From Chelativorans multitrophicus (GTDB lineage Bacteria; Pseudomonadota; Alphaproteobacteria; Rhizobiales; Rhizobiaceae): a DNA stretch of 64,000 nucleotides. A program made the position numbers and the translations under genes. Under the pieces are notes generated by a model, which worked only from the letters and a program-made list of their open reading frames with translations, ran no database searches and was not told where the DNA came from. Where the stretch lies: assembly GCF_011317445.1 (NCBI RefSeq), contig NZ_JAAAPL010000006.1, forward strand, positions 62,001 through 126,000, given 5' to 3'. Numbering within the stretch: the stretch's first letter is position 1; each line of letters starts with the position of its first letter. Below, in pieces: positions 16,837-30,294 of the stretch.

Positions 16837-18051
16837 ATGAACGCCAATGTCTCGACGGCCGGAACGACGGCCGAAGCATCCTCGTCCCCCCGCTGGGCGC
16901 TTCTCGCTCTTGCGATCGGCGCTTTCGGTATCGGCACGACCGAGTTCTCGCCGATGGGGCTTCTGCCCGTCATCGCGCAGGGGGTCGATGTTTCGATCCC
17001 GACGGCGGGGCTCCTCATCAGCGCCTATGCGATCGGCGTGATGATTGGCGCGCCGATCATGACGCTCGCCTTCAGCCGTTTCGGCAAGCGTACGGCGTTG
17101 ATCCTTCTGATGGTTATCTTCACCATCGGCAATCTGATGTCGGCCATGGCTCCGGGCTACTTTACGCTGCTCGCTGCCCGTCTCGTCACCAGCCTCAATC
17201 ACGGCGCCTTCTTCGGCCTGGGCGCGGTGGTGGCGGCAAGCGTGGTGCCGAAAGAAAAACAGGCAAGCGCCGTGGCCGCCATGTTCATGGGCCTGACTAT
17301 CGCCAATATCGGCGGTGTGCCGGCAGCGACCTGGGTTGGCCAGCAGATCGGCTGGCGCATGGCCTTCGCCGGAACGGCACTTATCGGTATCGCAGCCATC
17401 GCGGCGCTTTGGACCGCTCTTCCAAAGGGCGTGCGCGGCTCGATGCCGGATCTGAAGCGCGAGATGGGCGTGCTTACTCGACCCACGGTGCTGCTTGCGA
17501 TGGCGACCACCGTCATGGGGGCGGGGGCGATGTTCACGCTTTACACTTATGTCGCGCCTACCCTTGAGACCCTCACCGGCGCGTCCGACCGTTTCGTCAC
17601 CATTGGGCTCGCGTTGATCGGCATCGGCTTTACCATCGGCAATTGGCTGGGCGGGCGGCTGGCCGACTGGTCGCTCGATGGCGCGACCAAAATATTCCTC
17701 GGTGCGCTCGCCGTGATCATGCTCGTCCTTCCGCTGGCCTTTGGCACTCATGCGGGGGCGGCCATCGGTCTCCTTGTCTGGGGCGCTGCGGCATTCGCCA
17801 TCGTCCCGCCGGTGCAGATGCGGGTGATGCAAGCCGCATCGGAAGCGCCGGGCCTGGCCTCCTCCATCAATGTCGGAGCCTTCAACCTTGGCAACGCGCT
17901 GGGAGCGGCCATCGGCGCTGGAGTTATCAGCCTCGATCTTGGCTATGCGGCGGTCTCCATCGCTGGCGGCCTGCTCGCCTCCGCGGGTCTTGGCATGGTG
18001 CTCATCGGCGGCCGCGAGAAATCCCCACGACTCAAGATGTGTGGAGCCTAA
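16837..18051 (+). CDS. MFS drug/sugar exporter (DHA1, AraJ/YdhP-like)
   Basis: 404 residues with about 12 hydrophobic segments, the first beginning ALLALAIGAFGIGTTEFSPMG, a DHA1 signature, and a loop 2-3 motif FSRFGKRTALI. A central cytoplasmic loop (KGVRGSMPDLKREMG) splits the two six-helix halves. Located in the inner membrane; homologues export sugars or drugs by proton antiport. Co-transcribed with the aldo-keto reductase and probably controlled by the divergent LysR protein, which suggests a detoxify-and-export pair. Confidence 0.92.
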   Translation: MNANVSTAGTTAEASSSPRWALLALAIGAFGIGTTEFSPMGLLPVIAQGVDVSIPTAGLLISAYAIGVMIGAPIMTLAFSRFGKRTALILLMVIFTIGNLMSAMAPGYFTLLAARLVTSLNHGAFFGLGAVVAASVVPKEKQASAVAAMFMGLTIANIGGVPAATWVGQQIGWRMAFAGTALIGIAAIAALWTALPKGVRGSMPDLKREMGVLTRPTVLLAMATTVMGAGAMFTLYTYVAPTLETLTGASDRFVTIGLALIGIGFTIGNWLGGRLADWSLDGATKIFLGALAVIMLVLPLAFGTHAGAAIGLLVWGAAAFAIVPPVQMRVMQAASEAPGLASSINVGAFNLGNALGAAIGAGVISLDLGYAAVSIAGGLLASAGLGMVLIGGREKSPRLKMCGA

Positions 18052-18114
18052 AGCGGGGTTGGGTGGGCTTGGTCTGGAAAGCCTGCGTCCATAGCGGCCG
18101 ATCCAAACGCAAAA

Positions 18115-18149
18115 CACGCCCCGCCCAGCCTTTCGGCAAGCGGGGCGTG
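18115..18149 (-). terminator. Intrinsic terminator of the tctCBA-decarboxylase operon
   Basis: A perfect 10-bp inverted repeat, CACGCCCCGC (18115-18124) and GCGGGGCGTG (18140-18149), with a small inner GCC/GGC pairing. Read on the minus strand the hairpin is followed by TTTTGCGTTT, as expected for Rho-independent termination of the transcript coming from the decarboxylase gene. On the plus strand no T-run follows, so it is less suited to the MFS gene. Confidence 0.7.
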
Positions 18150-18315
18150 CTGCTTGGTCCGGCGCAGCTTCAAGAGAAATGAATAGGCACGGCAAGAGGT
18201 GCTTGCGGCCTTCAATCAGCTGAGAACGATGCAAGCGTGAGCAGCCGATCGGAAAGCTATGTGCTCGATGAAGTCGTTCGGATTCATCGAAATGCCGAGG
18301 CTTCCAGGCGTTTGC

Positions 18316-19041
18316 TCACGCTCTGCCTGTCAAAAATTTCGACGTGGCGTGTTCCGCTGTCTCGGCCGATCGCTTCAACAGACCGACGGCGCCGCGCACG
18401 CCCGCTGTGGCGCTGGTGACGACAGGCAATCCGGTGCTGATCTCCACATCGACGATGACGTCCAGCGTATGAAGCCCCCCGCAGGAAATCAAGACGGCGT
18501 CGACCGGTCCGGCATCATGTACCGCCTCTTTGCAAAGCTGCAACAGGCGTTTTGCAGGTGTTCCCGCCACGTCGGCAACCGAGGTGATGCCGAGCGACTT
18601 CAAGCTTCGGGCCTCGATGCCGTGTTCATTCAGGAACGCGGCAAGCAGATTGTTCACGTCCTGCCTGTAGGCGGTCACGACCGCGATCCGACGCGCGCCG
18701 TGGGACTTCAGTTCATCGACCACGGCCTGGCTCATCGTGGTCGCGGGCAGGCCACTCCGGTTGCTCATATGCGTGATCAGTTCGGCGTTGAAGGCCGCGC
18801 CGCGGAAGAAGCTGAGCGATGTTCCCATCAACGCGACCGCCTGCGCCCCGGCTTGCGCGTGGCGTTCAGCGTGGTCTCCGACGAGGTCGATTACACCGGC
18901 ATAGCCACAGGGCGTCATTTCCTTGAGCCCGAGACCAGAGGCGTGGAAGGTCACTTCCGGATACATGGCGACCGCCTCGGGAGGCACCAGGCCGGCGGCC
19001 GGAGGGACAATGAGACCGATGACGGGGTCTTCCGCACTCAT
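18316..19041 (-). CDS. Arylmalonate decarboxylase-like enzyme (Asp/Glu racemase superfamily)
   Basis: 241 residues. The sequence follows, from memory and not by computed alignment, the arylmalonate decarboxylase (AMDase) of Bordetella: the opening IVPPAAGLVPPEA, the dioxyanion-hole motif MGTSLSFFRGAAFNAEL (G73, T74, S75), Y125 in TAYRQDVN and the single catalytic cysteine C187 in ISCGGLHTLD. AMDase residues are numbered one higher (T75, S76, Y126, C188), a constant offset. Glycine at 73 instead of a first cysteine argues against a two-cysteine racemase or maleate isomerase. AMDase removes one carboxylate from disubstituted malonates without cofactor, giving a chiral acid. The start overlaps the tctA stop by four bases, so it is coupled to a carboxylate transporter. 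Confidence 0.85.
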   Translation of the reverse strand: MSAEDPVIGLIVPPAAGLVPPEAVAMYPEVTFHASGLGLKEMTPCGYAGVIDLVGDHAERHAQAGAQAVALMGTSLSFFRGAAFNAELITHMSNRSGLPATTMSQAVVDELKSHGARRIAVVTAYRQDVNNLLAAFLNEHGIEARSLKSLGITSVADVAGTPAKRLLQLCKEAVHDAGPVDAVLISCGGLHTLDVIVDVEISTGLPVVTSATAGVRGAVGLLKRSAETAEHATSKFLTGRA

Positions 19042-20522
19042 GCGGCGGCTTTCCTGAAGCTGCGCAACTCACTCACCAGCGCCCAGACAATGAAAGCGAC
19101 CGCCACAGCCAGAAATATGGCGCAGACGGGCCGGGTCAGCAGTGGCAGGTAGCTGCCATCATAGATCACCAGACCGGAGCGTAGGTTTTCTTCGGCCATG
19201 GGCGTCAGAATGTAGGCGATGATGAAGGGCCCGGTCGGGATCTTCGCTTTGTGCATGAGATACCCGAGGGCGGCGAAGACCAGCATCACGCCCGCATCGA
19301 ACAGGCGACTGGAAACCGAATAGGCGCCGATGAAGCAAAAGACCACAATCGGCGGCAGGAGATAGGCCTTGTTAACATACATCAGCCGCGCCAGCAGAGG
19401 CGTCGCCAACCACATGATTGCCAGCATCGCCACATTCGCCACGAGGACGCCGCCGATGATCGTATAGGCGATGGCTGGATTCTCGGCGAAGAGCAGCGGA
19501 CCTGGATTGAGGTTGTGGATCACCATGGCGCCCAACAGGATGGCCGTGATCACGGAGCCTGGTATGCCGAGGGTGATCAGCGGCACCAGCGCGCCGACGG
19601 TCCCGCTGTTGTTGGCGGCCTCGGAAGCGATGATGCCTTCCGCCGCGCCCTTGCCGAAGCGCTCGGGCGTTCGGGAGACGGCCTTTTCAATGGAATAGGC
19701 CGCGATCGAGGCAGTGGTTCCGCCGACGCCGGGCAGGATGCCGATCCAGGTGCCCACGAGCGAGGAGCGCAGGAAAGTCCAAGCATAGCGTGCGAGATCG
19801 CTCATGCGCATGACAACACATGACCCGCCGCGCGTCGCGCTCATTGGCCTGATGGCATCGCCGCAGTCCACCAGAACTTGGCTCAGCACGAGCGCGCCCA
19901 AAAGGACCGGCAGCAGGGCAAAGCCGTTGTCGAGGCCATGAAAGCCGAAGGTCAGCCGCAGCGTGCCGGTGATGGGATCCACGCCTGGCAGGGAGACAAG
20001 GGCCCCCAGGACCGCGGCCAGGAGGCCGTTGACCAAGCTGCCGCGGGAAATTGTGGCGATAAGGCTCAGCGCCACCACGGTCATGGCAAAGATTTCGTAG
20101 GGTCCGAAGCGAACGGCGATGAGCGACAGCGGGGGCGACAACAATGCAAGGATCAACCAGGCGATCATGCTGCCCACGAAAGAGGCAAGGACGCCAAGGC
20201 CCAGAGCCCGAGCAGGCTCGCCGGCCGCGGCCATGGGATAGCCGTCGAGCGTCGTCATGATCGCCGCCTCGGTGCCGGGCATGCGCATCAGCGTTGCGCT
20301 GATGAGGCCGCCGGTCGTGGCGCCGATATACATGGAAACCAGCAGCAGAAGCGCGTCCTCGCCGCTCATGAAAAAGGTCATCGGCAAGGCCAGCGATATG
20401 ACCATCGCACCCGAGAGTCCCGGGATTGCGCCGACGAAGATGCCGACGGCTGTGCCGAGGACGATCCAGGGCAGACCGCCGGTAAGGATGTGAGCGAAAA
20501 CCTCAGACATGTGGCCCCCCAA
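19038..20522 (-). CDS. tctA: Tripartite tricarboxylate transporter, large membrane subunit TctA
   Basis: A 494-residue inner-membrane protein of the TctA family, about 12 hydrophobic segments. Conserved family motifs are GLSGAMVISLALPMTF, GAIPGLSGA near the N-terminus and the second repeat GILPGVGGTTASIAAYSIEK. It is the sodium- or proton-coupled pore of a tripartite transporter. A second start (MSEVFAHIL) lies four codons in and may be preferred. Gene order is tctC-tctB-tctA-decarboxylase, and the ATGA overlap with the decarboxylase implies coupled expression. Confidence 0.94.
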   Translation of the reverse strand: MGGHMSEVFAHILTGGLPWIVLGTAVGIFVGAIPGLSGAMVISLALPMTFFMSGEDALLLLVSMYIGATTGGLISATLMRMPGTEAAIMTTLDGYPMAAAGEPARALGLGVLASFVGSMIAWLILALLSPPLSLIAVRFGPYEIFAMTVVALSLIATISRGSLVNGLLAAVLGALVSLPGVDPITGTLRLTFGFHGLDNGFALLPVLLGALVLSQVLVDCGDAIRPMSATRGGSCVVMRMSDLARYAWTFLRSSLVGTWIGILPGVGGTTASIAAYSIEKAVSRTPERFGKGAAEGIIASEAANNSGTVGALVPLITLGIPGSVITAILLGAMVIHNLNPGPLLFAENPAIAYTIIGGVLVANVAMLAIMWLATPLLARLMYVNKAYLLPPIVVFCFIGAYSVSSRLFDAGVMLVFAALGYLMHKAKIPTGPFIIAYILTPMAEENLRSGLVIYDGSYLPLLTRPVCAIFLAVAVAFIVWALVSELRSFRKAAA

Positions 20523-20540
20523 AATATCCGGCGATCAGCA

Positions 20541-21038
20541 TCAGATATCCACGTAGAAAAAGCTGGTGAAGACGTAATGGACCAGGAATGCAAAGAGTAC
20601 CGACGATATGAGAGCGGCGGCCAAGACCGGAATGCGGCGCTCGCCGGTCAGGAAGACGAACATCAGGAAGGTGAAAGCCGAGGTGGCCAAAGTGAAAGGG
20701 ACGGCGGGCAGGGCGAAGGTCGCGAAATAGGCGGTGATGAGGGCAAGCGCCCCGAACGCCTTTGCCGCCGAGTGCGCGGTTGCCGGGCCGGCTTCGCTTT
20801 CGACCTCCTCCTGCGCGCCGCCAGCCATGAGAAAAGAGAGTGCCTTCAGGCCGACCAGACCCAGCGCAAGGACACCCAGCGCCATGGGAAATGCCCCGCT
20901 GCCGATCCGCTCGTAAACGGCGGGGGGAATGGCCATGCTGGCGTGGATCGCGGCAGCCGCGACGGCGCACACGACCAGCATGAACAAAAGTGCGGGCGTG
21001 CTCTCACGGAGAAGACGTCGTGTCATCTGACTCTCCAA
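20541..21038 (-). CDS. tctB: Tripartite tricarboxylate transporter, small membrane subunit TctB
   Basis: 165 residues with four hydrophobic segments (about 14-33, 45-67, 92-112 and 135-160), matching TctB family length and topology; the sequence itself is poorly conserved, as usual. A start at MTRRLLRES, four codons in, is possible. It lies 32 bp after tctC and 18 bp before tctA on the same strand, the canonical order. Confidence 0.88.
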   Translation of the reverse strand: MESQMTRRLLRESTPALLFMLVVCAVAAAAIHASMAIPPAVYERIGSGAFPMALGVLALGLVGLKALSFLMAGGAQEEVESEAGPATAHSAAKAFGALALITAYFATFALPAVPFTLATSAFTFLMFVFLTGERRIPVLAAALISSVLFAFLVHYVFTSFFYVDI

Positions 21039-21070
21039 TTCGATGCCGTAGCGGCTCCCGGACGGTTGCT

Positions 21071-22030
21071 TTACTGGCCTGAGGTGGCTTTCACCACATC
21101 CACGACCCCGACATAGTCCTGATAGTCTTTCGCGATCGCCGCGCGCAGCTCTTCGCCCCGGAGTACCGCGGCTTCCTCGCCGCTATTGGCGATATATTCC
21201 TGCACCTCGTCGGTTTCGATCGCGGCCTCGATCGCGTCTGCGATCACTTTGATCGCCTCCTCCGGCGTGTTTTTGGGCGCCCAGTAGCGGCGCATAAGGC
21301 AGGCGCTGATGTCGTAGCCCAGTTCCTGCGCGGTCGGCAGATCGGGTGCCTCGTCGAAACGCTCCATGCCGAGTGCCGCAAGCGGGCGAAGATCGTTCTT
21401 CCCGCGCTCCAGCCACGGCGTTGACATGAATGCCAGATCAGCGAACCCGCCCTTGAGCGAGGCAAACCGCTTGGATGTTCCGCCGGTCGGGACGATCGTC
21501 CACTCGGTTTCGGCTTGCGACATGAGCATGGCGGAGGGGAAGTGTGTTGCGCTGCCGATATCGTCGGCCTGCTTCAGCTTGCCCGGGTTCTGTTTGGCAT
21601 AAGCGATGAGCTCTTCCAGAGTCTTGAACTCCGAGCTTTCGGGAACGGCCACGAACATGCAGCCACGCGTGGCCTGGATGACAGGTTCGAAGTCGTCGGG
21701 CGTATACTCGACCCGCCCGAGCGCGGAAGCGGCGAACATCTCCTGGTGGATCTGCAAGATCGTATAGCCGTTGGGCTCGGCATCCAGAACCTGACGGGTG
21801 CCGACCGTGCCCGCCGCACCATCGGCGTTGACCACGACGAACGGCACCGGCAGGAGATCGTGCTTCTCGATCGCCGCCTGAATGGCTCGTGCCAGTCCGT
21901 CGCTGCCGCCGCCGGCGCTGAAGGGGACGATCAGTTTCACCGGCTTTTCCGGAAATTCTGCCTGCGCGGGCAAAATCGCCATGCTCGCCGCGGCGGCGGA
22001 CGCAAGCAATGCAATCAACAGATTACGCAT
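21071..22030 (-). CDS. tctC: Tripartite tricarboxylate transporter substrate-binding protein (TctC/Bug)
   Basis: 319 residues. A Sec signal peptide (hydrophobic LLIALLASAAAASMAILPAQA) is followed by the Bug-family opening FPEKPVKLIVPFSAGGGSD, the first carboxylate-binding loop, and the second binding region ATHFPSAMLMSQAETEW with GGTSKRFASLKGG. The periplasmic protein captures a carboxylate and hands it to TctA/B. Bug proteins bind many organic acids and the ligand cannot be read from sequence; the coupled AMDase-like gene suggests a substituted malonate. It is the first gene of the minus-strand operon, with its promoter in the 145-bp divergent region. Confidence 0.93.
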   Translation of the reverse strand: MRNLLIALLASAAAASMAILPAQAEFPEKPVKLIVPFSAGGGSDGLARAIQAAIEKHDLLPVPFVVVNADGAAGTVGTRQVLDAEPNGYTILQIHQEMFAASALGRVEYTPDDFEPVIQATRGCMFVAVPESSEFKTLEELIAYAKQNPGKLKQADDIGSATHFPSAMLMSQAETEWTIVPTGGTSKRFASLKGGFADLAFMSTPWLERGKNDLRPLAALGMERFDEAPDLPTAQELGYDISACLMRRYWAPKNTPEEAIKVIADAIEAAIETDEVQEYIANSGEEAAVLRGEELRAAIAKDYQDYVGVVDVVKATSGQ

Positions 22031-22101
22031 TCGGTTCCTCCCTTGAATTCCAGCTTCAGACCTCCGCCCCGATCCGGAGAGCTTGATCTGCGAAAATTAG
22101 A

Positions 22102-22111
22102 TTGATATCAA
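22102..22111. promoter_or_regulatory. Candidate MarR operator 1 (palindrome TTGATATCAA)
   Basis: A perfect 10-bp palindrome in the divergent region between tctC and the enolase-superfamily gene. It matches a second site 31 bp away. On the minus strand it falls 10-20 bp downstream of a consensus -35 box TTGACA (22127-22122), that is in the spacer/-10 region expected for the tctC promoter, a position suited to repression. Binding by the MarR protein encoded at 24529 is inferred, not shown. Confidence 0.45.
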
Positions 22112-22121
22112 ACTTTCTGCA

Positions 22122-22127
22122 TGTCAA
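22122..22127 (-). promoter_or_regulatory. Candidate -35 box of the tctC promoter
   Basis: The minus strand reads the consensus hexamer TTGACA here. The best -10-like hexamers downstream (AATCTA, TCTAAT) are 18-20 bp away and imperfect, so the promoter is weak or regulated. The box lies between the two palindromes at 22102 and 22133. Confidence 0.35.
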
Positions 22128-22132
22128 CCATC

Positions 22133-22142
22133 TTGAAATCAA
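22133..22142. promoter_or_regulatory. Candidate MarR operator 2 (TTGAAATCAA)
   Basis: Same TTGA-N2-TCAA half-sites as the palindrome at 22102, 31 bp centre to centre, close to three helical turns, so two dimers would sit on one face of the DNA. It lies 20 bp upstream of the ribosome site of the plus-strand enolase-superfamily gene. Regulatory role is an inference from symmetry, repetition and location. Confidence 0.45.
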
Positions 22143-22175
22143 CTTATTCGGCGTGCTGCCCAAGGAGGGAAAGCT

Positions 22176-23336
22176 TTGAATCTTGCGATCCAGACCGTCA
22201 CGGCCTATCCAGCCTATATCCCGGTGACGCTTTCGATCGGGCCGGTGGAGGTCGCGACCTCCTTGTCCTGCGCAGTGGTCGAGGTGACGACCGCTGACGG
22301 CGTGGTGGGCTACGGCTTCACAGCCATTACGGACGAAGAGGTGATCGTCGCGATCGTGAAGGAACTGGTCGCACCCGAAATCGTCTCGCTCAATGCGCTC
22401 GAGCGCGAGAAAATCGCCGAACGGCTCTATTGGCTGCTCACGCCGCGCGGCCAGACGGGTTACGCCAGCCACGTGGCTTCGGCGGTTGATCTGGCACTTT
22501 GGGATATCCTCGGCAAGGTCACCGGCCAACCCTGTTGGAAGCTCCTCGGCGGTGCTCGCGAAGAGGTCCCGCTGTACGTGACCTTCGGCTTTGGTTCATT
22601 CGACCGTGACCAGCTGGTCGACGCGGCCCGGCATCTGAAGGCTGACGGTGTAACGCATTTCAAGATGGTTGTCGGCCATCACGCCCTGAAGCGCCGCAAT
22701 GCAGGCGAGGATCTGCGCGCTATTGTCGCCGAGGACGCGGAGCGGGTGCGGCTGGTTCGTGAGGCGGTTGGCGAGGGTTGCGAGATCTTCGTCGATGCGA
22801 ACTGCAGTCTCGACCCCGGGTCTGCGGCGTGGCTCGCCAGCCGCCTGCGCGACCTTAACGTCGCGTTTTTCGAAGAACCGGTGCGTGACAACGATCCAGC
22901 CCGGCTCGCCGAGCTCCGCCGCACCTCCAATCTGCGTGTCGCTGCGGGCCAGAATGAAGGGCAGTTGTGGCGCTTCCAATCGCTTCTGGACGCCGATGCC
23001 GTGGACGTGCTTCAACCCAACGTGGTCATCTGCGGCGGGCTGACCGCAGGCGCCAAGATTGCTGCCCTGGCTCAGGCCCGCAACATCCAGATCGCCAATG
23101 GCGGCGCCTTTCCCTTCCACAACATGCATCTTCACGCTGGTCTCGCCCATGGCGGAATGGTCGAGTGGCACCTGATCTCGGTGGAGATGTGCAAGGCGCT
23201 GTACAGCGGCCTTCCCCGGCGCCAGGGGTCCGTACTGAAATTACCGGACACACCGGGGCTGGGTTTCGCAGCGGATCCGGCTGCATTGCGCGAGTTTGCG
23301 GCACGGCCGACATCGCGCGGAAAAGGAAAGGGCTGA
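22176..23336 (+). CDS. Enolase-superfamily enzyme (mandelate racemase/muconate lactonizing type)
   Basis: 386 residues. TTG start: AAGGAGGGA at 22162-22170 is well placed and no in-frame ATG precedes the conserved domain. N-terminal capping domain about 1-125, then the (beta/alpha)7 barrel. Metal ligands are likely D207 (FVDANCS), E233 or E234 (FFEEPV) and E261 (AGQNEGQ). The mandelate-racemase His-Asp dyad appears as D277 and H315 (FPFHNMHLH). The KxK base motif reads K163-M-V165, so the second lysine is missing. Such enzymes abstract a proton alpha to a carboxylate for racemisation, dehydration or lactonisation. The substrate is unknown; the neighbouring decarboxylase and hydroxyacid dehydrogenase suggest a 2-substituted acid. 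The next gene begins directly after the stop. Confidence 0.88.
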   Translation: MNLAIQTVTAYPAYIPVTLSIGPVEVATSLSCAVVEVTTADGVVGYGFTAITDEEVIVAIVKELVAPEIVSLNALEREKIAERLYWLLTPRGQTGYASHVASAVDLALWDILGKVTGQPCWKLLGGAREEVPLYVTFGFGSFDRDQLVDAARHLKADGVTHFKMVVGHHALKRRNAGEDLRAIVAEDAERVRLVREAVGEGCEIFVDANCSLDPGSAAWLASRLRDLNVAFFEEPVRDNDPARLAELRRTSNLRVAAGQNEGQLWRFQSLLDADAVDVLQPNVVICGGLTAGAKIAALAQARNIQIANGGAFPFHNMHLHAGLAHGGMVEWHLISVEMCKALYSGLPRRQGSVLKLPDTPGLGFAADPAALREFAARPTSRGKGKG

Positions 23337-24461
23337 ATGCGCTACCGGTCGAAAGCGCCTCTGGTCTGTGCGGATGATCTGCGGGAAGCAGCCCGCCGGC
23401 GCATGCCGCGCTTCGCGTTCGATTTCATCGACGGGGCGGCGGGAAGCGAGGCGGGACTGGCACGCAACCGAGCAGCCTTCGAGGCGGAGCTGCTCAGGCC
23501 ACGCGCGCTGGTCAATACCGATGGCGACCTGAAGACCGGGAGGCGTTTCCTGGGGCAGGAATGGTCGGTTCCGTTCGGCATCTCGCCCATTGGGCTGGCT
23601 GGCATCGCCTGGCCGGGAATCGATCTGGTCCTGGCTGGTGCGGCGGAGCGCAACGGTGCGCCTTATATTGCCTCCACGCCGGCCACCGCCAGCCTTGAGG
23701 ATCTCAAACGCACGGCAGCCGTTTCCGCCTGGTTCCAGCTTTATGTCGGCCGTTCACAGGAGATCGTGGATGACCTGATCGACCGGGCCGCGGCCGCGGG
23801 TTACGAGGTTCTGGTTGTCACAGTCGACGTGCCGCGTCCGGGCAAGCGCCGGCGGGACCTGCGCAACGGCTTTGCCCTGCCGTTGAAGATCGGCCCGCGT
23901 ATGATCGCGGATCTCATGACGCATCCGAAGTGGTCGCTTGAAGTTCTGCGTAAGGGCGCGCCCCGCTTCGCCAACCTGGAACGTTATGCCCCTCCCGGTG
24001 CCGGCGCGCGGTCCCTTGCGGAGTTGATGGCCGGGCAGAGCTCCGGGCGGCTTGATTGGACGCTTTTGGCGCAGCTACGCGAGCGCTGGCAAGGACGGCT
24101 GGTCGTCAAGGGCATCATGGCACCCGAGGACGCTATGCGTGCTCGCGAAGAGGGGGTGGATGCGGTAATCGTGTCCAATCATGGAGGGCGCCAGCTTGAT
24201 AGCGCGCCGGCCACCCTGCATGCGCTGAAGCAAATCCGCGAAGCCGTCGGGCCGGATTATTCGCTGGCGGTTGATGGCGGGATCCGCACCGGCGAGGACA
24301 TCCTGAAAAGCCTATTCGCCGGCGCGGATTTCACTTTTCTCGGGCGTCCGTTCCTCTATGCCGTTGCAGCGCGGGGGACGAATGGGGCGAACGATCTCTT
24401 TGACATGCTCCGCGCAGAACTCGTAAACGCCATGGCACAGGTCGGGCGTTGTGAACTGTGA
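23337..24461 (+). CDS. FMN-dependent 2-hydroxyacid dehydrogenase/oxidase (mandelate/lactate type)
   Basis: 374 residues of the LldD/MdlB/glycolate-oxidase family, a TIM barrel that oxidises an L-2-hydroxyacid to the 2-oxoacid with FMN. Catalytic and FMN residues are present: Q134 and Y136 (FQLYVGR), K258 (VVKGIM), H282 and R285 in SNHGGRQLD, and the phosphate loop DGGIRTGEDILKSLFAGA. The substrate-binding tyrosine of glycolate oxidase (Y24) aligns with F30 here. The ATG abuts the stop of the enolase-superfamily gene with no gap, so they are co-translated. Electron acceptor (quinone or oxygen) is not determinable. Confidence 0.93.
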   Translation: MRYRSKAPLVCADDLREAARRRMPRFAFDFIDGAAGSEAGLARNRAAFEAELLRPRALVNTDGDLKTGRRFLGQEWSVPFGISPIGLAGIAWPGIDLVLAGAAERNGAPYIASTPATASLEDLKRTAAVSAWFQLYVGRSQEIVDDLIDRAAAAGYEVLVVTVDVPRPGKRRRDLRNGFALPLKIGPRMIADLMTHPKWSLEVLRKGAPRFANLERYAPPGAGARSLAELMAGQSSGRLDWTLLAQLRERWQGRLVVKGIMAPEDAMRAREEGVDAVIVSNHGGRQLDSAPATLHALKQIREAVGPDYSLAVDGGIRTGEDILKSLFAGADFTFLGRPFLYAVAARGTNGANDLFDMLRAELVNAMAQVGRCEL

Positions 24462-24528
24462 CTGTTTTCGCTGTTTTGAGAGGCGTTTTGCGGGCACGTT
24501 GTTTGAGACTGACTGAGAGGTTTGCCGG

Positions 24529-25026
24529 ATGACCCGTCCAGATGATGTCGTGGAGCAAGCGTTGGAAGCTCCTTCGGAAAGGCCATCCATGATAGATCTC
24601 GGGATTCTGGAGGAGCTGACCGGCTTTTACCTGCGGGCGGCCTATGAGGCCTGCTACAACGACTTTGCCACGGTGCTCGGCCCGGATAAGCTAAAGCCTG
24701 GCAGCTTCGCGCTGATGTCGTTGATATTCGAGAACCCGGGAATCACCCAGGTTGAGCTCGCACGGGGCAGTGGCCGCGACAAGTCCAGCGTGGCCATCGC
24801 GCTACGGCAACTGGAGGATTCAGGGCTGATCCGGCGCGTCCGCCTCGAGGGCGACCGGCGCTCCTATGCCAGTTATCTCACGAGCGCGGGAGAGACGCTT
24901 TATCAGCGGATGATAGCCAAGGCGCGCACGCATATCGAGCGTGTGGACGCGATTGTTGGGCCAGAACGCAAGGCGATCCTGCTGACGATTCTGAAAGACA
25001 TCGTCGACGGGCTTCAGGCGGATTAA
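24529..25026 (+). CDS. MarR-family transcriptional regulator
   Basis: 165 residues; winged helix-turn-helix with recognition helix region NPGITQVELARGSGRDKSSV followed by the wing IRRVRLEGDRRSYASYLT, shown in part, and flanking dimerisation helices. MarR proteins are homodimeric repressors released by small, often aromatic or carboxylic, ligands. It follows the hydroxyacid dehydrogenase by 67 bp on the same strand and is the only regulator in the locus, so it probably controls both divergent operons through the paired palindromes at 22102-22142. That link is an inference. Confidence 0.92.
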   Translation: MTRPDDVVEQALEAPSERPSMIDLGILEELTGFYLRAAYEACYNDFATVLGPDKLKPGSFALMSLIFENPGITQVELARGSGRDKSSVAIALRQLEDSGLIRRVRLEGDRRSYASYLTSAGETLYQRMIAKARTHIERVDAIVGPERKAILLTILKDIVDGLQAD

Positions 25027-25551: not shown

Positions 25552-27156
25552 ATGGACAGGCGTTCATTCATCATCGGAGGAGGCGGGGCACTAGCGGGCA
25601 TGACCGCTTTTCTGAACAATGCCGTCGCCCTTGCACAGGATCAGGCCGAAACGGCGCAGCTTCAGCAGTCTCTCCCCGGGGAAACGCAACCCTTCTCGTT
25701 CGACCTCCTGACGGCCACGATGAAGCAGAAGGCCGAAAAAGAATATCAACCGGTAGAGGAAGCTCTGCCGGAATCGGTGACGGAGTTGAGCTATGATCAG
25801 CATCGCGCGATCCGCTTCCGGCCCGATGCTGCCTTTTTCGCCGGCGAGGCTCCTTTCGAACTCCAGGCCTTCCATCCCGGCTGGCTCTTCAAGCAGCCGG
25901 TGCATCTTCATGTGATCGAGAACGGCGCCGCCACGAGGATGCACATCACATCGCAGATGTTCGAGTACCGCCAGCCCTTGTTGGACCCGCAGAAATTTCA
26001 AGGCATGGAGTTTCCGGGCGTTGCGGGCTTCCGGCTGCACTATCCGCTCAACAATCCGGATATCATGGACGAGCTCGTGTCGTTTCTCGGCGCCAGCTAC
26101 TTTCGGGGGTTGGGGCGGGGAAGCATCTATGGGATCTCCGCGCGCGGCCTTGCGGTGAATACGGCGACGCCCGTTGGCGAAGAATTTCCGATGTTCACCG
26201 ATTTCTGGATCGAGAAGCCGGAGCGCAGAAGCAAGTCCATCATGGTCTATGCCGCGCTCGATAGCGCCAGCGTCACGGGAGCATATTCGTTCCAGATCAC
26301 GCCCGGCCAGAATACGACCATGGAGGTGATCGCGCGGCTCTTCATCCGCAACGACATCCAGAGACTGGGCATCGCGCCGATGACCTCGATGTTTCTTTTC
26401 AGCCAGAACAATCATCATGCCTTCGACGATTACCGGGGTGAGGTGCATGATAGCGAAGGCCTCAAGATCGTGCGGGGCAATGGCGAGGAGCTGTGGCGCC
26501 ATCTGAACAACCCGAAGGAGCTCGCCACGTCCTTTTTCGGCGAAACGGGCGTCAAGGCCTTCGGTCTGTTCCAGCGCGATCGGGACTTCGACCACTACCA
26601 GGATGCGGAGGCGCATTACGAGCGCCGTCCGTCGCTCCTTGTCGAGCCGCTCGGCGACTGGGGCAAGGGGTATCTCAACCTGGTGGAGATCCCGACAGAG
26701 CTCGAGGTGAACGACAATATTGTCGCGTTCTGGATGCCGGAAGGGGAGGTGAAAGCCGGCCAACAGTTCGAATACCGGTATCGCCTCACTTGGGGCGCGA
26801 TCGAGGAGCCGACGAATCAGCTCGCGCGAGTGACCGCTTTGCGCGCCGGCATCGGCGGCACTTCCGGCGTGGAAAATGCAGAGGGCCTGAGGAAGTTCGT
26901 GGTGGATTTCGAGGGAGATGTGCTCGGGAACCTAGCCGCGGATTCGAACGTTGAGGCCAGTATTTCTGTGACAAGGGCGGAAATAGTGCACAGCGCGGTA
27001 TCTCGTGTCGAAGCCAATGGCGCATGGCGATTGGTCATCGACCTCATGCCCGAGGGAGACGCGCCGGTGGAGATGACCGGTTATTTGAGTTTGAACGGCC
27101 AGAGGCTATCTGAAACGTGGGCGTATCAGTGGAGAAGAACCGATGAGCAGCGCTGA
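25552..27156 (+). CDS. opgG: Periplasmic glucan biosynthesis protein OpgG/OpgD
   Basis: 534 residues of the MdoG/OpgG-OpgD family, needed in the periplasm to form or branch the linear beta-1,2-glucan backbone of osmoregulated periplasmic glucans. The signal MDRRSFIIGGGG carries adjacent arginines in a Tat-like SRRxFL context, a feature of OpgD more than of Sec-exported E. coli OpgG. Family hallmarks follow: RFRPDAAFFAGEAPFELQAF, LGASYFRGLGRG and SHDF-type charged loops such as FSQNNHHAFDDYRGEVHD. The ATG is preceded by GAAGGA. First gene of an opgG-(small ORF)-opgH-opgC unit; the small ORF overlaps its stop. Confidence 0.93.
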   Translation: MDRRSFIIGGGGALAGMTAFLNNAVALAQDQAETAQLQQSLPGETQPFSFDLLTATMKQKAEKEYQPVEEALPESVTELSYDQHRAIRFRPDAAFFAGEAPFELQAFHPGWLFKQPVHLHVIENGAATRMHITSQMFEYRQPLLDPQKFQGMEFPGVAGFRLHYPLNNPDIMDELVSFLGASYFRGLGRGSIYGISARGLAVNTATPVGEEFPMFTDFWIEKPERRSKSIMVYAALDSASVTGAYSFQITPGQNTTMEVIARLFIRNDIQRLGIAPMTSMFLFSQNNHHAFDDYRGEVHDSEGLKIVRGNGEELWRHLNNPKELATSFFGETGVKAFGLFQRDRDFDHYQDAEAHYERRPSLLVEPLGDWGKGYLNLVEIPTELEVNDNIVAFWMPEGEVKAGQQFEYRYRLTWGAIEEPTNQLARVTALRAGIGGTSGVENAEGLRKFVVDFEGDVLGNLAADSNVEASISVTRAEIVHSAVSRVEANGAWRLVIDLMPEGDAPVEMTGYLSLNGQRLSETWAYQWRRTDEQR

Positions 27157-27295
27157 GGAAAACTTGCGCGCGCATCATATCGTTCAGCAGAGCGCGTTGC
27201 CTGCGGCTCCCATGGCGATGCCGGAGCAAGTGTTGTCGCGGCGCTGGCGCGGCTTTTTGCTGCGGCCGTTCCTTCAGTGGCTGGCGCTGAGATAG
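27143..27295 (+). CDS. 50-codon ORF resembling the detached N-terminus of OpgH
   Basis: Starts at ATG 27143 inside the end of opgG (14-base overlap) and stops at TAG 27293-27295. It contains SALPAAPMAMPEQVL, which resembles the LPPEAPLAMPEQSL stretch that I recall from the cytoplasmic N-terminus of full-length OpgH proteins such as that of Xanthomonas. It is in the same frame as opgH, separated by TAG and a TGA at 27320-27322. So either OpgH's N-terminal region is a separate peptide here or the gene has decayed at its 5' end. Nothing else is recognised in it. Confidence 0.6.
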   Translation: MSSAEENLRAHHIVQQSALPAAPMAMPEQVLSRRWRGFLLRPFLQWLALR

Positions 27296-27334
27296 ATATC
27301 TTGCCGGCAGACCGGCTTTTGAACGGGATTTGTG

Positions 27335-29131
27335 ATGGTTACGTTGCGGCGCGCCGCCTCTGCTCTCTTTGCATTGGCGATGGCACTTACGGCCAGCTAT
27401 CTGGCGATAGGCTATTTCGATTCAGATGGGTTGCAGTGGCTGGATCTCGCGCGCGTGGTCCTGCTGGCGCTCAGCACGGCCTGGCTCGCCTGGGGCGCGG
27501 TCCTGGCACTCAACGGGCTGTTCTCGCTTCGGCGTGGACGCGTGCCTCGCCTGCGCGGTCCGATCACGGTCAGAACTGCCGTGGTGGTGCCGGTTTATAA
27601 CGAGGACCCCGTCAAATCCTTCTCGCATGTGGCTGCGATGGTGAAGAGCATCGGCCGGACATCCTTCGCCAGCCAATTCGATTTCGTCATTCTTTCGGAC
27701 ACCACCGATCAACGGATTGCCGCGAAAGAGGAGTTCTGGCTTGTGCGGCTCAAAACCGAGGTGAGCCATATCTGCAAGATCTTTTACCGGCGTCGTCCCT
27801 CAAATCCGGGAAAGAAGGCGGGCAATATCGCTGATTTCATCAAAACCTCCGGTGCGCTGTACGACTACCTCATCATCCTTGACGCCGACAGCCTGATGGA
27901 GGGCTCGACGATGGTGGAGATGGTGCGGCGCATGGAGGCCGATCCTCAGCTTGGTTTGTTGCAGACCTTGCCAAAGGTCATTCGCGCACGCTCGTTCTTC
28001 GGACGGGCCATTCAGTTTTCCGCCTCTTACTACTCTCCTATCTACGCTCAGGGCCTCGCACTGCTGCAAGGCACGGAGGGTCCTTTTTGGGGCCACAACG
28101 CGATTACCCGTACACGCGCTTTCGCGCAGAGCTGCGGCCTCCCGCAATTGCCGGGTAAGCCCCCCTTCGGCGGCCATATCCTCAGCCACGATTTTGTCGA
28201 AGCGGCTCTCCTGGCGCGGAATGGATGGAAGGTGAGAATAGATCCCGATCTGCGCGGTTCTTTCGAGGAGGGACCGGATAACGTCATTGATTACGCCAAG
28301 CGCGACCGCCGCTGGTGCCAGGGTAATCTGCAGCACAGCCGGATCTTGCCCGCCCCGGGATTGAAGAGATGGAGCCGTTTCGTCTTCGTACAAGGTATTA
28401 TGGCGTATGTTTCGGCGCCTCTTTGGGCGCTCTTCCTTGCTGCCAGTATTATCGCTCCGGCCATGACCGTGATCCCGGATTATTTCCCGGCGCCTGGATT
28501 GCCCGTTTTTCCCAAAGTTGAAACGGCGAATGCCCTGGCGCTGCTTACCGGCGTGGTCGGGCTTCTTCTCGGGCCGAAGCTCCTTATTCTGATCGACGGC
28601 ATGATAACCGGGCGGAATCGCCGCTTTGGCGGAAGCATCCGGGCTTTCTGCAGCGTCGTGATCGAGATTGTCTGCACGAGCGTCCTCGCGCCGATCATGA
28701 TGCTGTTCCAGACGCGGGCGGTGCTTGAGATTCTGGCCGGGGCGGATGCAGGATGGCCTGCTGCCAACCGGGAAGCCGGCCGCGTCAGCCTCAGCGAGGC
28801 CTGGGCGGCCAGTTGGTGGGTCATGGTGGTCGGGCTTATAACGATTGGAGCGGCCTACCGGCTTGCGCCGGATTACCTGATTTTCGTGCTTCTGGTGGCG
28901 GGTCCTCAGGTCGTGGCGCCGTTTGTGATCAGCGGCACGTCTTATGCCGGCCAGGCGCTCCGCCGCGCGCCGGTCAGCCTGTTCGTCACACCCGAGGAAC
29001 TGACGCCCTCGCAGGTAATGCGCGAGCAGCAGAATGTCCTGGTGCGTTGGCGAGCGGACACGGTGGAACTTTCGGACTCAATAATGGCCGAGCAGTCGGA
29101 GGATCCGGCGGAGGCCAGGACCAGCCGATGA
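27335..29131 (+). CDS. opgH: Glucan biosynthesis glucosyltransferase OpgH
   Basis: 598 residues from ATG 27335 (a GTG precedes it directly). An inner-membrane family 2 glycosyltransferase that polymerises UDP-glucose into the periplasmic glucan backbone. The core has VVVPVYNEDPVKSF, the DxD-type ILDADSLMEGS, SHDFVEAALL and the (Q/R)xxRW motif RDRRWCQGNLQH. Hydrophobic segments lie at about 8-50 and in the C-terminal third (several between 355 and 550). It is shorter at the N-terminus than enterobacterial OpgH (over 800 residues), and the missing conserved MPEQ segment is on the preceding 50-codon ORF. OpgC overlaps its stop by four bases. Confidence 0.93.
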   Translation: MVTLRRAASALFALAMALTASYLAIGYFDSDGLQWLDLARVVLLALSTAWLAWGAVLALNGLFSLRRGRVPRLRGPITVRTAVVVPVYNEDPVKSFSHVAAMVKSIGRTSFASQFDFVILSDTTDQRIAAKEEFWLVRLKTEVSHICKIFYRRRPSNPGKKAGNIADFIKTSGALYDYLIILDADSLMEGSTMVEMVRRMEADPQLGLLQTLPKVIRARSFFGRAIQFSASYYSPIYAQGLALLQGTEGPFWGHNAITRTRAFAQSCGLPQLPGKPPFGGHILSHDFVEAALLARNGWKVRIDPDLRGSFEEGPDNVIDYAKRDRRWCQGNLQHSRILPAPGLKRWSRFVFVQGIMAYVSAPLWALFLAASIIAPAMTVIPDYFPAPGLPVFPKVETANALALLTGVVGLLLGPKLLILIDGMITGRNRRFGGSIRAFCSVVIEIVCTSVLAPIMMLFQTRAVLEILAGADAGWPAANREAGRVSLSEAWAASWWVMVVGLITIGAAYRLAPDYLIFVLLVAGPQVVAPFVISGTSYAGQALRRAPVSLFVTPEELTPSQVMREQQNVLVRWRADTVELSDSIMAEQSEDPAEARTSR

Positions 29132-30294
29132 CCACCACGCTTCCGCAGTTGGGCGGGCGCGATCACAGGATAGATGCCTTCCGCGGCATTGCTCTCCTGA
29201 TGATCTTCGTCAATCACGTCCCGGGCAACGCCTTCGAGAATCTTACTTCGCGCAATTTCGGATTTTCCGACGCGGCGGAAGCTTTCGTGCTTATGTCCGG
29301 CATCGCCGTTGGGCTCGCCTATGCGCGTCCGTTCCGTGCAGGAGAGTATCTCAAAGGCTGCCTGAGTGTCTGGCGCCGCGCCGGCACGTTGTATGTCGCG
29401 CATATGGTCTGCACCGCTATCGCCATCGGAATTCTGGCGGCGGGCGTTGTCTTTCTCGATACTATCGATGTGCTTGCGCGCGTGAACTTCACGCCGCTCC
29501 TCGAACAGCCGCTCAGGACGATGGTGGGTCTGCCGCTGCTTACGCATCAGCTTGGCTATCTGAACATCCTGCCCATGTATGCGGCGCTGCTTGTCATTTC
29601 ACCGGTCTATATCCTGATAGGATTGTGGAACCGCCTTGGCCTCATAGCCGTGGCCATCGTGGTCTGGGTGCTGGCTGGCGCCTTCCGCATCAACCTGCCT
29701 AATTTCCCGCTGCCAGGCGGCTGGTTCTTCAATCCGGTGAGCTGGCAGCTGATTTACGCCATCGGCATTGCCGGCGGCCTTGCCATGATCCACAAGCGCA
29801 GACTGCTTGGCTATCACGGATGGCTGTTTTCCGCCTGCCTTGCCTATCTGGGCTTCTCCCTCCTCTGGGTGCAGATGGAGATGGGCAGTTTGCCGTTCCA
29901 GCCATATCTCCCGTTCTACATCGGCGGAATGGACAAGACATTTCTCGCGCTTCCCCGGCTGCTGCATGTGCTGGCGCTCACTTATGTGCTCACGAATCTC
30001 CCCGCCGCTTCACGCCTGCTGGCGGGACCCGCCTTTCACGCCATCCGGCTTATCGGGCAGCACGGGCTCGCGGTGTTCACGGTCGGAACCGTGCTGTCGA
30101 TCGCGCTGCAGGTCCTGCGCGCGCGCTTCGATACAAGCATGGTCGAGGATGCGGCGCTCCTGACAGGGGGCATTCTCGTCCAATACGGCATCGCGCGCTT
30201 TATCGCGGCGAGTTCCGAGCGGAAGCGGACTGTGCGAGACGGCGCCAATATAGGCGAACCGGCGGTAGCCGGTTCCATCGCACGGCGGGCGTAG
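29128..30294 (+). CDS. opgC: OpgC-type glucan succinyltransferase
   Basis: 388 residues from ATG 29128, which overlaps the opgH stop (ATGA). A polytopic membrane acyltransferase of the OpgC family with about 10 hydrophobic segments; characteristic are the opening RDHRIDAFRGIALLMIFVNHVPGN, DAAEAFVLMSGIAVGLAY and GGMDKTFLALPRLLHVLAL. OpgC adds succinyl groups to periplasmic glucans, making them anionic. Position at the end of the opgG-opgH unit agrees. Upstream in-frame extension would overlap opgH by hundreds of bases and is not supported. Confidence 0.9.
   Translation: MTTTLPQLGGRDHRIDAFRGIALLMIFVNHVPGNAFENLTSRNFGFSDAAEAFVLMSGIAVGLAYARPFRAGEYLKGCLSVWRRAGTLYVAHMVCTAIAIGILAAGVVFLDTIDVLARVNFTPLLEQPLRTMVGLPLLTHQLGYLNILPMYAALLVISPVYILIGLWNRLGLIAVAIVVWVLAGAFRINLPNFPLPGGWFFNPVSWQLIYAIGIAGGLAMIHKRRLLGYHGWLFSACLAYLGFSLLWVQMEMGSLPFQPYLPFYIGGMDKTFLALPRLLHVLALTYVLTNLPAASRLLAGPAFHAIRLIGQHGLAVFTVGTVLSIALQVLRARFDTSMVEDAALLTGGILVQYGIARFIAASSERKRTVRDGANIGEPAVAGSIARRA

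Follow-up and report, generated by a model that had tools for sequence, protein, structure and literature searches.

Arylmalonate decarboxylase (AMDase) was first reported in 1990, has been engineered since and is used industrially. Its role in the cells that carry it is less clear: the natural substrate has been called uncovered (PMC4424294) and is given as unknown in the accessible text of a 2026 paper (PMC13096762). The question is raised again by seven genes, one of them for an AMDase, at positions 18316–25026 of a 64,000-nucleotide stretch of Chelativorans multitrophicus DNA (contig NZ_JAAAPL010000006.1, positions 62,001–126,000; this whole stretch is called the window). In this study, the genes were read as a catabolic locus under MarR control that serves an imported malonate substituted at carbon 2. 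This compound, most likely 2-hydroxylated with an aryl (or alkenyl) group at the same carbon, would be taken to a 2-oxo acid by a mandelate-like route. The probability of this reading was put at about 0.45. The AMDase was found in a recurring seven-gene unit with a transporter receptor, a regulator and two further enzymes, which reduces the substrate question to a short list of direct tests and helps to narrow down the natural role of the enzyme.

Gene content of the locus and identity of the decarboxylase

An earlier note, made from the sequence of the window alone, had described tctC-tctB-tctA-decarboxylase on the minus strand and, divergently, an enolase-superfamily gene, a flavin mononucleotide (FMN) dehydrogenase gene and marR. 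The list of open reading frames (ORFs) placed all seven genes where that note had put them, and the arrangement was borne out by Pfam: the main matches of all seven proteins exceeded the curated cut-offs in the profile search. The features are as follows.

18316–19041, minus strand: AMDase, 241 amino acids (NF052327, 370.9 bits; PF17645, 283.7 bits)
19038–20522, minus strand: tctA, large membrane subunit of a tripartite tricarboxylate transporter (TTT) (PF01970, 445 bits)
20541–21038, minus strand: tctB, small membrane subunit of the TTT (PF07331, 41.5 bits)
21071–22030, minus strand: tctC, periplasmic substrate-binding protein of the TTT (PF03401, 109.3 bits)
22176–23336, plus strand: mandelate racemase/muconate lactonizing enzyme (MR/MLE) gene of the enolase superfamily, TTG start (PF13378 and PF02746)
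23337–24461, plus strand: FMN-dependent 2-hydroxyacid dehydrogenase of the (S)-mandelate/L-lactate dehydrogenase type (PF01070, 400.4 bits)
24529–25026, plus strand: marR, MarR-family regulator (PF01047, 47.7 bits)
about 18115–18149, minus strand: GC-rich hairpin and T run, probable terminator (sequence; fold score)
22102–22128, no strand assigned: putative divergent promoter/operator region, with the palindrome TTGATATCAA and a GTCAAC box

The leftward unit thus runs tctC-tctB-tctA-AMDase and the rightward unit MR/MLE-FMN dehydrogenase-marR. The end of tctA and the start of the AMDase gene share 4 nt, and no base separates the MR/MLE stop from the FMN gene. The TTT is complete at the locus, with TctA, TctB and TctC all found by Pfam. 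In a search of solved structures, the matches of TctC included Bug/TctC and terephthalate-binding structures.

Judged by its sequence, the decarboxylase, which the earlier note had called an AMDase homologue, is a genuine AMDase (EC 4.1.1.76) of the Bordetella prototype. Its 370.9 bits on the curated equivalog NF052327 passed the cut-off of 225, and its closest solved relatives were AMDase structures. All 12 AMDase criteria given in the accessible text of PMC4996985 (P14 P15, T75 S76, Y126, G189, L40, V43, Y48, V156, M159, G74/C188, LMGTSLSF and ILLSCGGL) were found in the alignment, similar residues allowed, as P13 P14, T74 S75, Y125, G188, L39, M42, Y47, V155, V158, G73/C187, LMGTSLSF and VLISCGGL. 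Among 81 aligned AMDases, Met at the V43 position and Val at the M159 position were both common. Gly73, Thr74, Ser75, Tyr125, Cys187, Gly188 and Gly189 were invariant in 81/81 rows, and nearly all rows kept the large-pocket Pro-Pro and the hydrophobic pocket residues. The single catalytic Cys was Cys187. By alignment, the enzyme shares one catalytic Cys, the dioxyanion hole and the hydrophobic pocket with Bordetella bronchiseptica AMDase (PDB 3dtv, 2vlb), from which it differs by V43 to M and M159 to V. Next to two Bordetella-group AMDases (L076, L109) there is a tctC gene but, unlike in the window, neither an MR/MLE nor an FMN gene.

Maleate isomerase, hydantoin racemase and Asp/Glu racemase were rejected as assignments: Gly occupied the second-Cys position, a criterion in the accessible text of PMC4996985, and the protein scored far better against AMDases. 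A defence-system scan of the AMDase gave no match, and neither did a first scan of the genome contigs with the single AMDase.

True AMDase was rare in whole-genome draws, with 2/385 genomes (class draw) and 15/365 genomes (family draw) over the NF052327 cut-off. Broad counts were swollen by distant relatives: 34/61 genomes exceeded the Pfam cut-off, and the class draw gave 139/385 genomes at E 0.001.

Recurrence of the gene set and its apparently exchangeable side

The AMDase neighbourhood is in part already in print. According to the accessible text of PMC4996985 (Maimanakos et al. 2016), 61% of AMDase sequences have the gene beside a TTT, tripartite ATP-independent periplasmic (TRAP) or ATP-binding cassette (ABC) transporter and an MR/MLE gene; complete TTT systems occur near AMDase in Alphaproteobacteria, and uptake and product degradation were suggested as the purpose of the neighbouring genes. 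The neighbourhood was repeated in a review (PMC5812351, accessible text). The TTT-I to TTT-V clusters of the 2016 paper combine a Bordetella-prototype AMDase with TTT and MR/MLE, as in the window. Therefore, the natural context that the earlier note had expected the locus to give AMDase stands as a conserved unit but is not new, being known in outline since 2016. By contrast, the text covered contains neither the FMN-MarR module nor an exchange of the transporter/AMDase side nor the change in the MR/MLE active site. In the main text of PMC4996985, figures and supplements aside, the terms dehydrogenase, MarR, FMN, regulator and dehydratase do not occur, and oxidoreductase occurs once, for an ABC cluster. 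In the open-licence papers searched, arylmalonate decarboxylase was not found jointly with mandelate dehydrogenase, and arylmalonate was found jointly with mandelate racemase in PMC4996985 alone. What appears to be new is the FMN dehydrogenase and MarR as a module with MR/MLE, retained while the transporter/AMDase side is exchanged. This analysis adds that module, the pattern of exchange, the alteration of the MR/MLE site and a link to an AMDase-free relative, L193, described below.

The species-genome collection gave 131 AMDase stretches, the best 80 of which were compared as AMDase loci, with identity thresholds of at least 45% for MR/MLE, at least 55% for the FMN gene and at least 40% for MarR. 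Several loci ended at contig ends, and 58/80 had more than 6 kb on both sides. MR/MLE was present in 35/80 loci, the FMN gene in nine and MarR relatives in 12, the latter two always with MR/MLE; the 58 loci with longer flanks contained MR/MLE in 31 cases, FMN in eight and an IlvD-type dehydratase in seven. The search for the same neighbourhood in other genomes, which the earlier note had proposed as a check, thus showed AMDase, TTT, MR/MLE, FMN and MarR recurring together. Because the gene set recurs in other genomes, the seven-gene layout is not due to chance.

The window layout, MarR-FMN-MR/MLE facing TctC-TctB-TctA-AMDase, was also found in L070, L072, L073, L083 and L086. In L069 (Aurantimonas), the AMDase gene sits behind marR. 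Opposite the module, L075 and L078 have a different TTT whose tctC and tctA genes enclose AMDase; L081, L101, L113 and L138 have the same different-TTT side without the FMN gene. In the MR/MLE tree, the sequences from FMN loci and MarR loci formed one well-supported group of 14 (98/99). In the AMDase tree, these loci were scattered in separate groups, and one supported six-member group (100/100) matched the different TTT; the number of changes is inflated by L084, labelled FMN-type although its AMDase lies beside a second MR/MLE gene about 5 kb from the module. Median identities among FMN loci were 47% for AMDase, 69% for MR/MLE, 65% for FMN, 73% for TctA, 66% for TctC and 55% for MarR (window and eight FMN loci, with seven sequences for TctA and TctC; L084 and a Thalassospira pair left out). 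We read these results as a stable MR/MLE-FMN-MarR side whose importer/AMDase counterpart can be exchanged; alternatively, AMDase may evolve faster.

The linkage was also seen in the whole-genome draws, in which the best candidates per genome were scored (five in the class draw, four in the family draw). The MR/MLE subgroup (more than 600 bits, next 528) occurred in 2/385 class-draw genomes, the same two that had a true AMDase. The FMN subgroup, sought in the class draw and the window's own genome, occurred in 1/385 (699 bits, next 407), which was the window's own. The family draw gave the MR/MLE subgroup in 9/394 genomes, and eight of these nine had a true AMDase in the same region. With the window genome excluded (7/8), the binomial probability was 1.5e-9 against the AMDase background of 15/365 in another family draw, which overlaps the first without being identical. 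The surveys overlap as well, some drawn genomes being the assemblies of loci (G450 = L069, G675 = L084, G061 = L068, G053 = L086, G059 = L074, G016 = L092, G025 = L105).

Some AMDase loci had unusual titles or neighbours. L072, on a contig titled Enemella evansiae (Actinomycetota), carries a complete locus of alphaproteobacterial type at 51–75% identity (TctB unscored), by horizontal transfer or contamination. AMDases were found in metagenome bins titled Chloroflexi, Terriglobia and Bryobacterales (L065, L082, L110); the 2016 survey limited AMDases to Proteobacteria, and binning errors are possible. Variovorax AMDases adjoin MmgE/PrpD, short-chain dehydrogenase/reductase and acyl-CoA dehydrogenase genes.

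Proposed pathway and alternatives

From the gene identities, the AMDase residues, the recurring linkage and the altered MR/MLE active site, which are shown by sequence, we infer a substrate, an order of steps, a stereochemistry and a mode of regulation. TctABC would import the 2-substituted malonate. AMDase would then cleave one carboxyl group by means of its single Cys187 to give the (R)-acid, as known wild-type AMDases do. The MR/MLE protein would act on the 2-hydroxy acid between the AMDase and FMN steps; its position suggests a converter of (R) to (S), with an apparatus unlike that of mandelate racemase. Oxidation of the 2-hydroxy acid to the 2-oxo acid would fall to the FMN dehydrogenase, which belongs to the (S)-specific mandelate/lactate type. 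The 2-oxo acid could then be converted to an aryl carboxylate by a thiamine diphosphate (ThDP) enzyme and an aryl-aldehyde dehydrogenase whose genes lie elsewhere in the genome. Engineered AMDases yield heteroaromatic alpha-hydroxy acids, according to the accessible text of PMC4996985.

The oxidation to a 2-oxo acid, as proposed in the earlier note, gained support from L193 (genome G666, same family), although the proposal as a whole is only partly supported. L193 had no AMDase match in the whole genome. Its gene order is aldehyde dehydrogenase and IclR, then divergently a ThDP enzyme, MR/MLE (58%), TctC, an ORF at the TctB position, TctA and FMN dehydrogenase (52%). L193 links MR/MLE, TctC, TctA and FMN to ThDP and aldehyde dehydrogenase genes. 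The best solved matches of the aldehyde dehydrogenase were vanillin dehydrogenase (621 bits), salicylaldehyde dehydrogenase (601) and NahF (515); eight sequences fell within E 1e-100, and the remaining five were 4-hydroxybenzaldehyde dehydrogenases. The ThDP enzyme corresponded to PRK08327 (662 bits, cut-off 456), a model to which no function is assigned. Paired homologues were found in the window's own genome in L206 (C9:581000-595000), at 56% identity for the ThDP enzyme and 67% for the aldehyde dehydrogenase, adjoining a LysR gene and another TctC/TctA; two further ThDP relatives in the window's genome were 45% and 39% identical.

The gene set of L193 resembles a variant of the mandelate pathway. 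In Pseudomonas putida, this pathway is encoded by mdlA-mdlB-mdlC-mdlD, an operon that includes benzoylformate decarboxylase and benzaldehyde dehydrogenase. An enolase-superfamily gene is joined there to an FMN (S)-2-hydroxyacid dehydrogenase gene, as in the window, and L193 shares the ThDP enzyme and the aryl-aldehyde dehydrogenase. The window differs in adding AMDase and TTT upstream in the route and in having an MR/MLE protein without the racemase bases. Neither benzoylformate decarboxylase nor benzaldehyde dehydrogenase was found among the ORFs and Pfam matches of 18316–25026, so that the locus by itself does not pass as a mandelate operon.

The FMN enzyme matched (S)-mandelate dehydrogenase 6bfg with 260 bits over the full length, including an extra segment that we take to be the membrane segment of membrane-bound (S)-mandelate dehydrogenase. 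Besides PF01070, its MdlB/LldD-type motifs FQLY, TVDV, GKRRRD, SNHGGR and PIGL were retained in the alignment; we assume the usual roles for the active-site Tyr, Asp, Arg and His-x-x-Arg in them. The substrate-binding and catalytic residues of the family are kept, as is Gly (not Ala) beside FMN, as in (S)-mandelate dehydrogenase; Tyr26 of MdlB is replaced by Phe. The L-lactate dehydrogenase model PRK11197 was not passed (287 of 376 bits). According to the accessible text of PMC3526519 on V108A in L-lactate dehydrogenase, one position sets lactate versus mandelate use. At this substrate-size position, the window enzyme has Pro115 instead of the V of the lactate type or the A of the mandelate type, and Pro was also found in 9/9 other subgroup members. 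L193 has Ala there, and the more distant FMN enzymes of the AMDase loci L064, L115 and L131 have Ala, Gln and Met. In L131 (Pseudacidovorax), AMDase and MR/MLE are accompanied by this different FMN enzyme, which is 36% identical, and the pairing may have arisen independently.

The MR/MLE protein has the MR_MLE N- and C-terminal domains (PF13378, PF02746). Its model (pLDDT 91.7) gave the enolase fold in Foldseek (E 2.8e-30), with a template modelling (TM) score of about 0.8 against 5xd9, 2ovl and 3no1, which are cycloisomerases and unassigned members. The alignment had 36 rows, one for the window and 35 for sequences of 34 loci, L084 supplying two; about one third of the rows were close Variovorax relatives. 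L124 was dropped from the original 37 rows because its ORF was partly in the wrong frame. The subgroup signature is K163-M-[V/T], DANC, GQNE, QPN and NGG. DANC with its Cys after DAN, GQNE, NGG, HN-x-H and E-x-H (E330-x-H332 in the window) were invariant in 36/36 rows. Compared with mandelate racemase and MR-type acid-sugar dehydratases, the fold and positions K164, N197, E317, D195 and E221 are kept, whereas K166, D270 and H297 are replaced and E247 is Q with Glu two residues on. D195, E221 and E247 are the Mg2+ ligands of mandelate racemase; at these positions, D207 and E233 are kept and the third is Q259, with E261 two residues on, in 36/36 rows. QPN and NGG or close variants also occur in a wider circle of proteins from genomes without true AMDase, which makes the MR/MLE protein part of a larger uncharacterised enolase subgroup. 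Among L143–L152, which are more distant QPN/NGG-type proteins from such genomes, some lie beside other TTT genes.

Several results weigh against the reading of the locus as a mandelate-like route. Lys166 and His297 are the two enantiospecific bases of mandelate racemase in the accessible text of PMC9835602. In all 36 aligned MR/MLE rows, K166 is replaced by V or T, H297 by N, and the Asp270 position is Asn282. Against solved proteins of the MR subgroup, the second Lys of K-x-K has become Val/Thr, the Asp before the sixth-strand Gly-Gly Asn and the seventh-strand His Asn. Asp270 is the partner of His297. A standard mandelate racemase was rejected on the replacement of both bases, and the isomerisation suggested in the earlier note is not supported as far as the mandelate-racemase mechanism is concerned. 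The best solved match of the subgroup reached 189 bits and is functionally unassigned; because Foldseek matches were also generic, solved structures were rejected as an explanation of the protein. Thus, a subgroup of the enolase superfamily is exposed whose chemistry is not revealed by known active sites; it may carry out racemisation via other residues, dehydration or another enolate reaction. Further, the FMN subgroup has Pro where mandelate dehydrogenase has Ala, so the substrate may differ, and 71/80 AMDase loci, some of them incomplete, had no FMN gene of the subgroup. The aryl argument comes from one relative, L193, and is therefore suggestive only; its aldehyde dehydrogenase was below all NCBIfam cut-offs shown (best HpaE, 379 of 638 bits), and its ThDP enzyme matched benzoylformate decarboxylase weakly (best solved, 87 bits). 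We know of no arylhydroxymalonate that is a common natural compound.

Ten AMDase loci without MR/MLE also count here, since they suggest 2,3-dihydroxy acids. An IlvD-type dehydratase (IlvD/EDD) was found in 10/80 loci (L098, L099, L105, L114, L118, L121, L123, L074, L102, L137), and none of the 80 had both IlvD and MR/MLE. Seven of the ten had a tartronate-semialdehyde-reductase-like gene and seven a TRAP transporter (one representative per family scanned). The main rival explanation starts from these loci: the substrate would be a polyhydroxylated 2-hydroxymalonate (2-carboxy-aldonate), AMDase would give an aldonate, and MR/MLE would be an acid-sugar dehydratase, replaced by the IlvD type elsewhere. 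It is serious because the IlvD-type dehydratase takes the place of MR/MLE in AMDase loci. Moreover, of 15 NCBIfam models matching the window MR/MLE, the top seven were sugar-acid dehydratases, all under the cut-off. Ascorbate-derived 2-carboxy-L-lyxonate is formed in bacteria and decarboxylated by a PdxA-type enzyme; the term was not found in the literature checked. We nevertheless consider a 2-carboxy-aldonate substrate rather unlikely. The AMDases tested so far require a pi system on the alpha carbon, and the Pro-Pro and hydrophobic pocket are kept in nearly all 81 AMDases. The Lys and His-Asp that characterise MR-type dehydratases are missing from the MR/MLE protein as well, the neighbour in L193 is an aryl-aldehyde dehydrogenase gene, and the IlvD loci may serve another substrate.

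Alpha-alkyl or alpha-alkenyl arylmalonates could instead yield (R)-2-arylpropionate-like acids for MR/MLE, with the FMN dehydrogenase acting later or on a side branch. AMDases were characterised on this chemistry (PMC4996985, accessible text), and 26/35 MR/MLE loci had no FMN gene of the subgroup. Such a route would leave the FMN 2-hydroxyacid dehydrogenase without a role, although its gene abuts MR/MLE and its subgroup occurred only with MR/MLE in the 80 AMDase loci and in 1/385 class-draw genomes; it was judged improbable. Slightly less probable still is a general hydroxyacid module of MR/MLE, FMN and TTT to which AMDase is loosely attached as a passenger in this genome. L193 carries the module without AMDase, and the AMDases of FMN-type loci are not one clade and are less alike than MR/MLE, FMN and TctA. 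Against this, AMDase accompanied the MR/MLE subgroup in 8/9 family genomes, and six loci pair a different AMDase and a different TTT with the same MR/MLE-MarR side, which looks like the exchange of a needed function, not loss. A mandelate-like route from a 2-hydroxy-2-aryl- (or alkenyl-) malonate remained the preferred reading. In its boldest form, which is possible though doubtful, the enolase-superfamily protein that accompanies AMDase would have a catalytic apparatus of a new kind, lacking K166 and H297-D270 and marked by invariant DANC, QPN, NGG, HN-x-H and E330-x-H332. Together with AMDase and the FMN dehydrogenase, it would form an undescribed pathway from arylhydroxymalonate through mandelate to an aryl-2-oxo acid, and this would be the natural role of AMDase in these Alphaproteobacteria.

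Probable control sequences and flanking genes

The MarR regulator probably controls the divergent promoter between tctC and MR/MLE. The gap contains the palindrome TTGATATCAA at 22102–22111 and GTCAAC at 22123–22128, the complement of which, GTTGAC, may serve tctC as a −35 box. GTCAAC was found in 14/14 gaps of the MarR/MR-MLE type (window and 13 loci), against a mean of 0.6 and a maximum of 4/14 in shuffles that preserve base composition only, and also in the gap of L188, checked later. In checks likewise made later, it was found in 0/24 control stretches ahead of MR/MLE genes that lack the MarR module, stretches that are approximate as they begin at the longest open frame, and not ahead of the L193 ThDP gene. 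The weight of the box is moderate because it was picked by eye after looking and a sigma-70-type promoter pattern scan found none in the tctC-MR/MLE gap. The palindrome in its window form was not found in the gaps of the other loci compared.

Behind AMDase, a minus-strand hairpin at 18115–18149 precedes TTTTGCGTTT and is a probable terminator of the tctC-tctB-tctA-AMDase operon. A simple terminator pattern scan did not list it, and its terminator-like sites were at chance level (6 against 6.1). The hairpin reported in the earlier note was nevertheless confirmed by folding: the 66-nt stretch 18095–18160 on the minus strand folds at −40.2 kcal/mol (z −4.4), and 0/200 shuffles were as good.

The flanking genes were ordinary by Pfam, with a major facilitator superfamily gene at 16837–18051 and mdoG at 25552–27156. 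At 25552–30294 of the window, the mdoG-type gene (PF04349), which alone was checked, is followed by an apparent glucosyltransferase and an acyltransferase gene; this is probably an osmoregulated periplasmic glucan locus.

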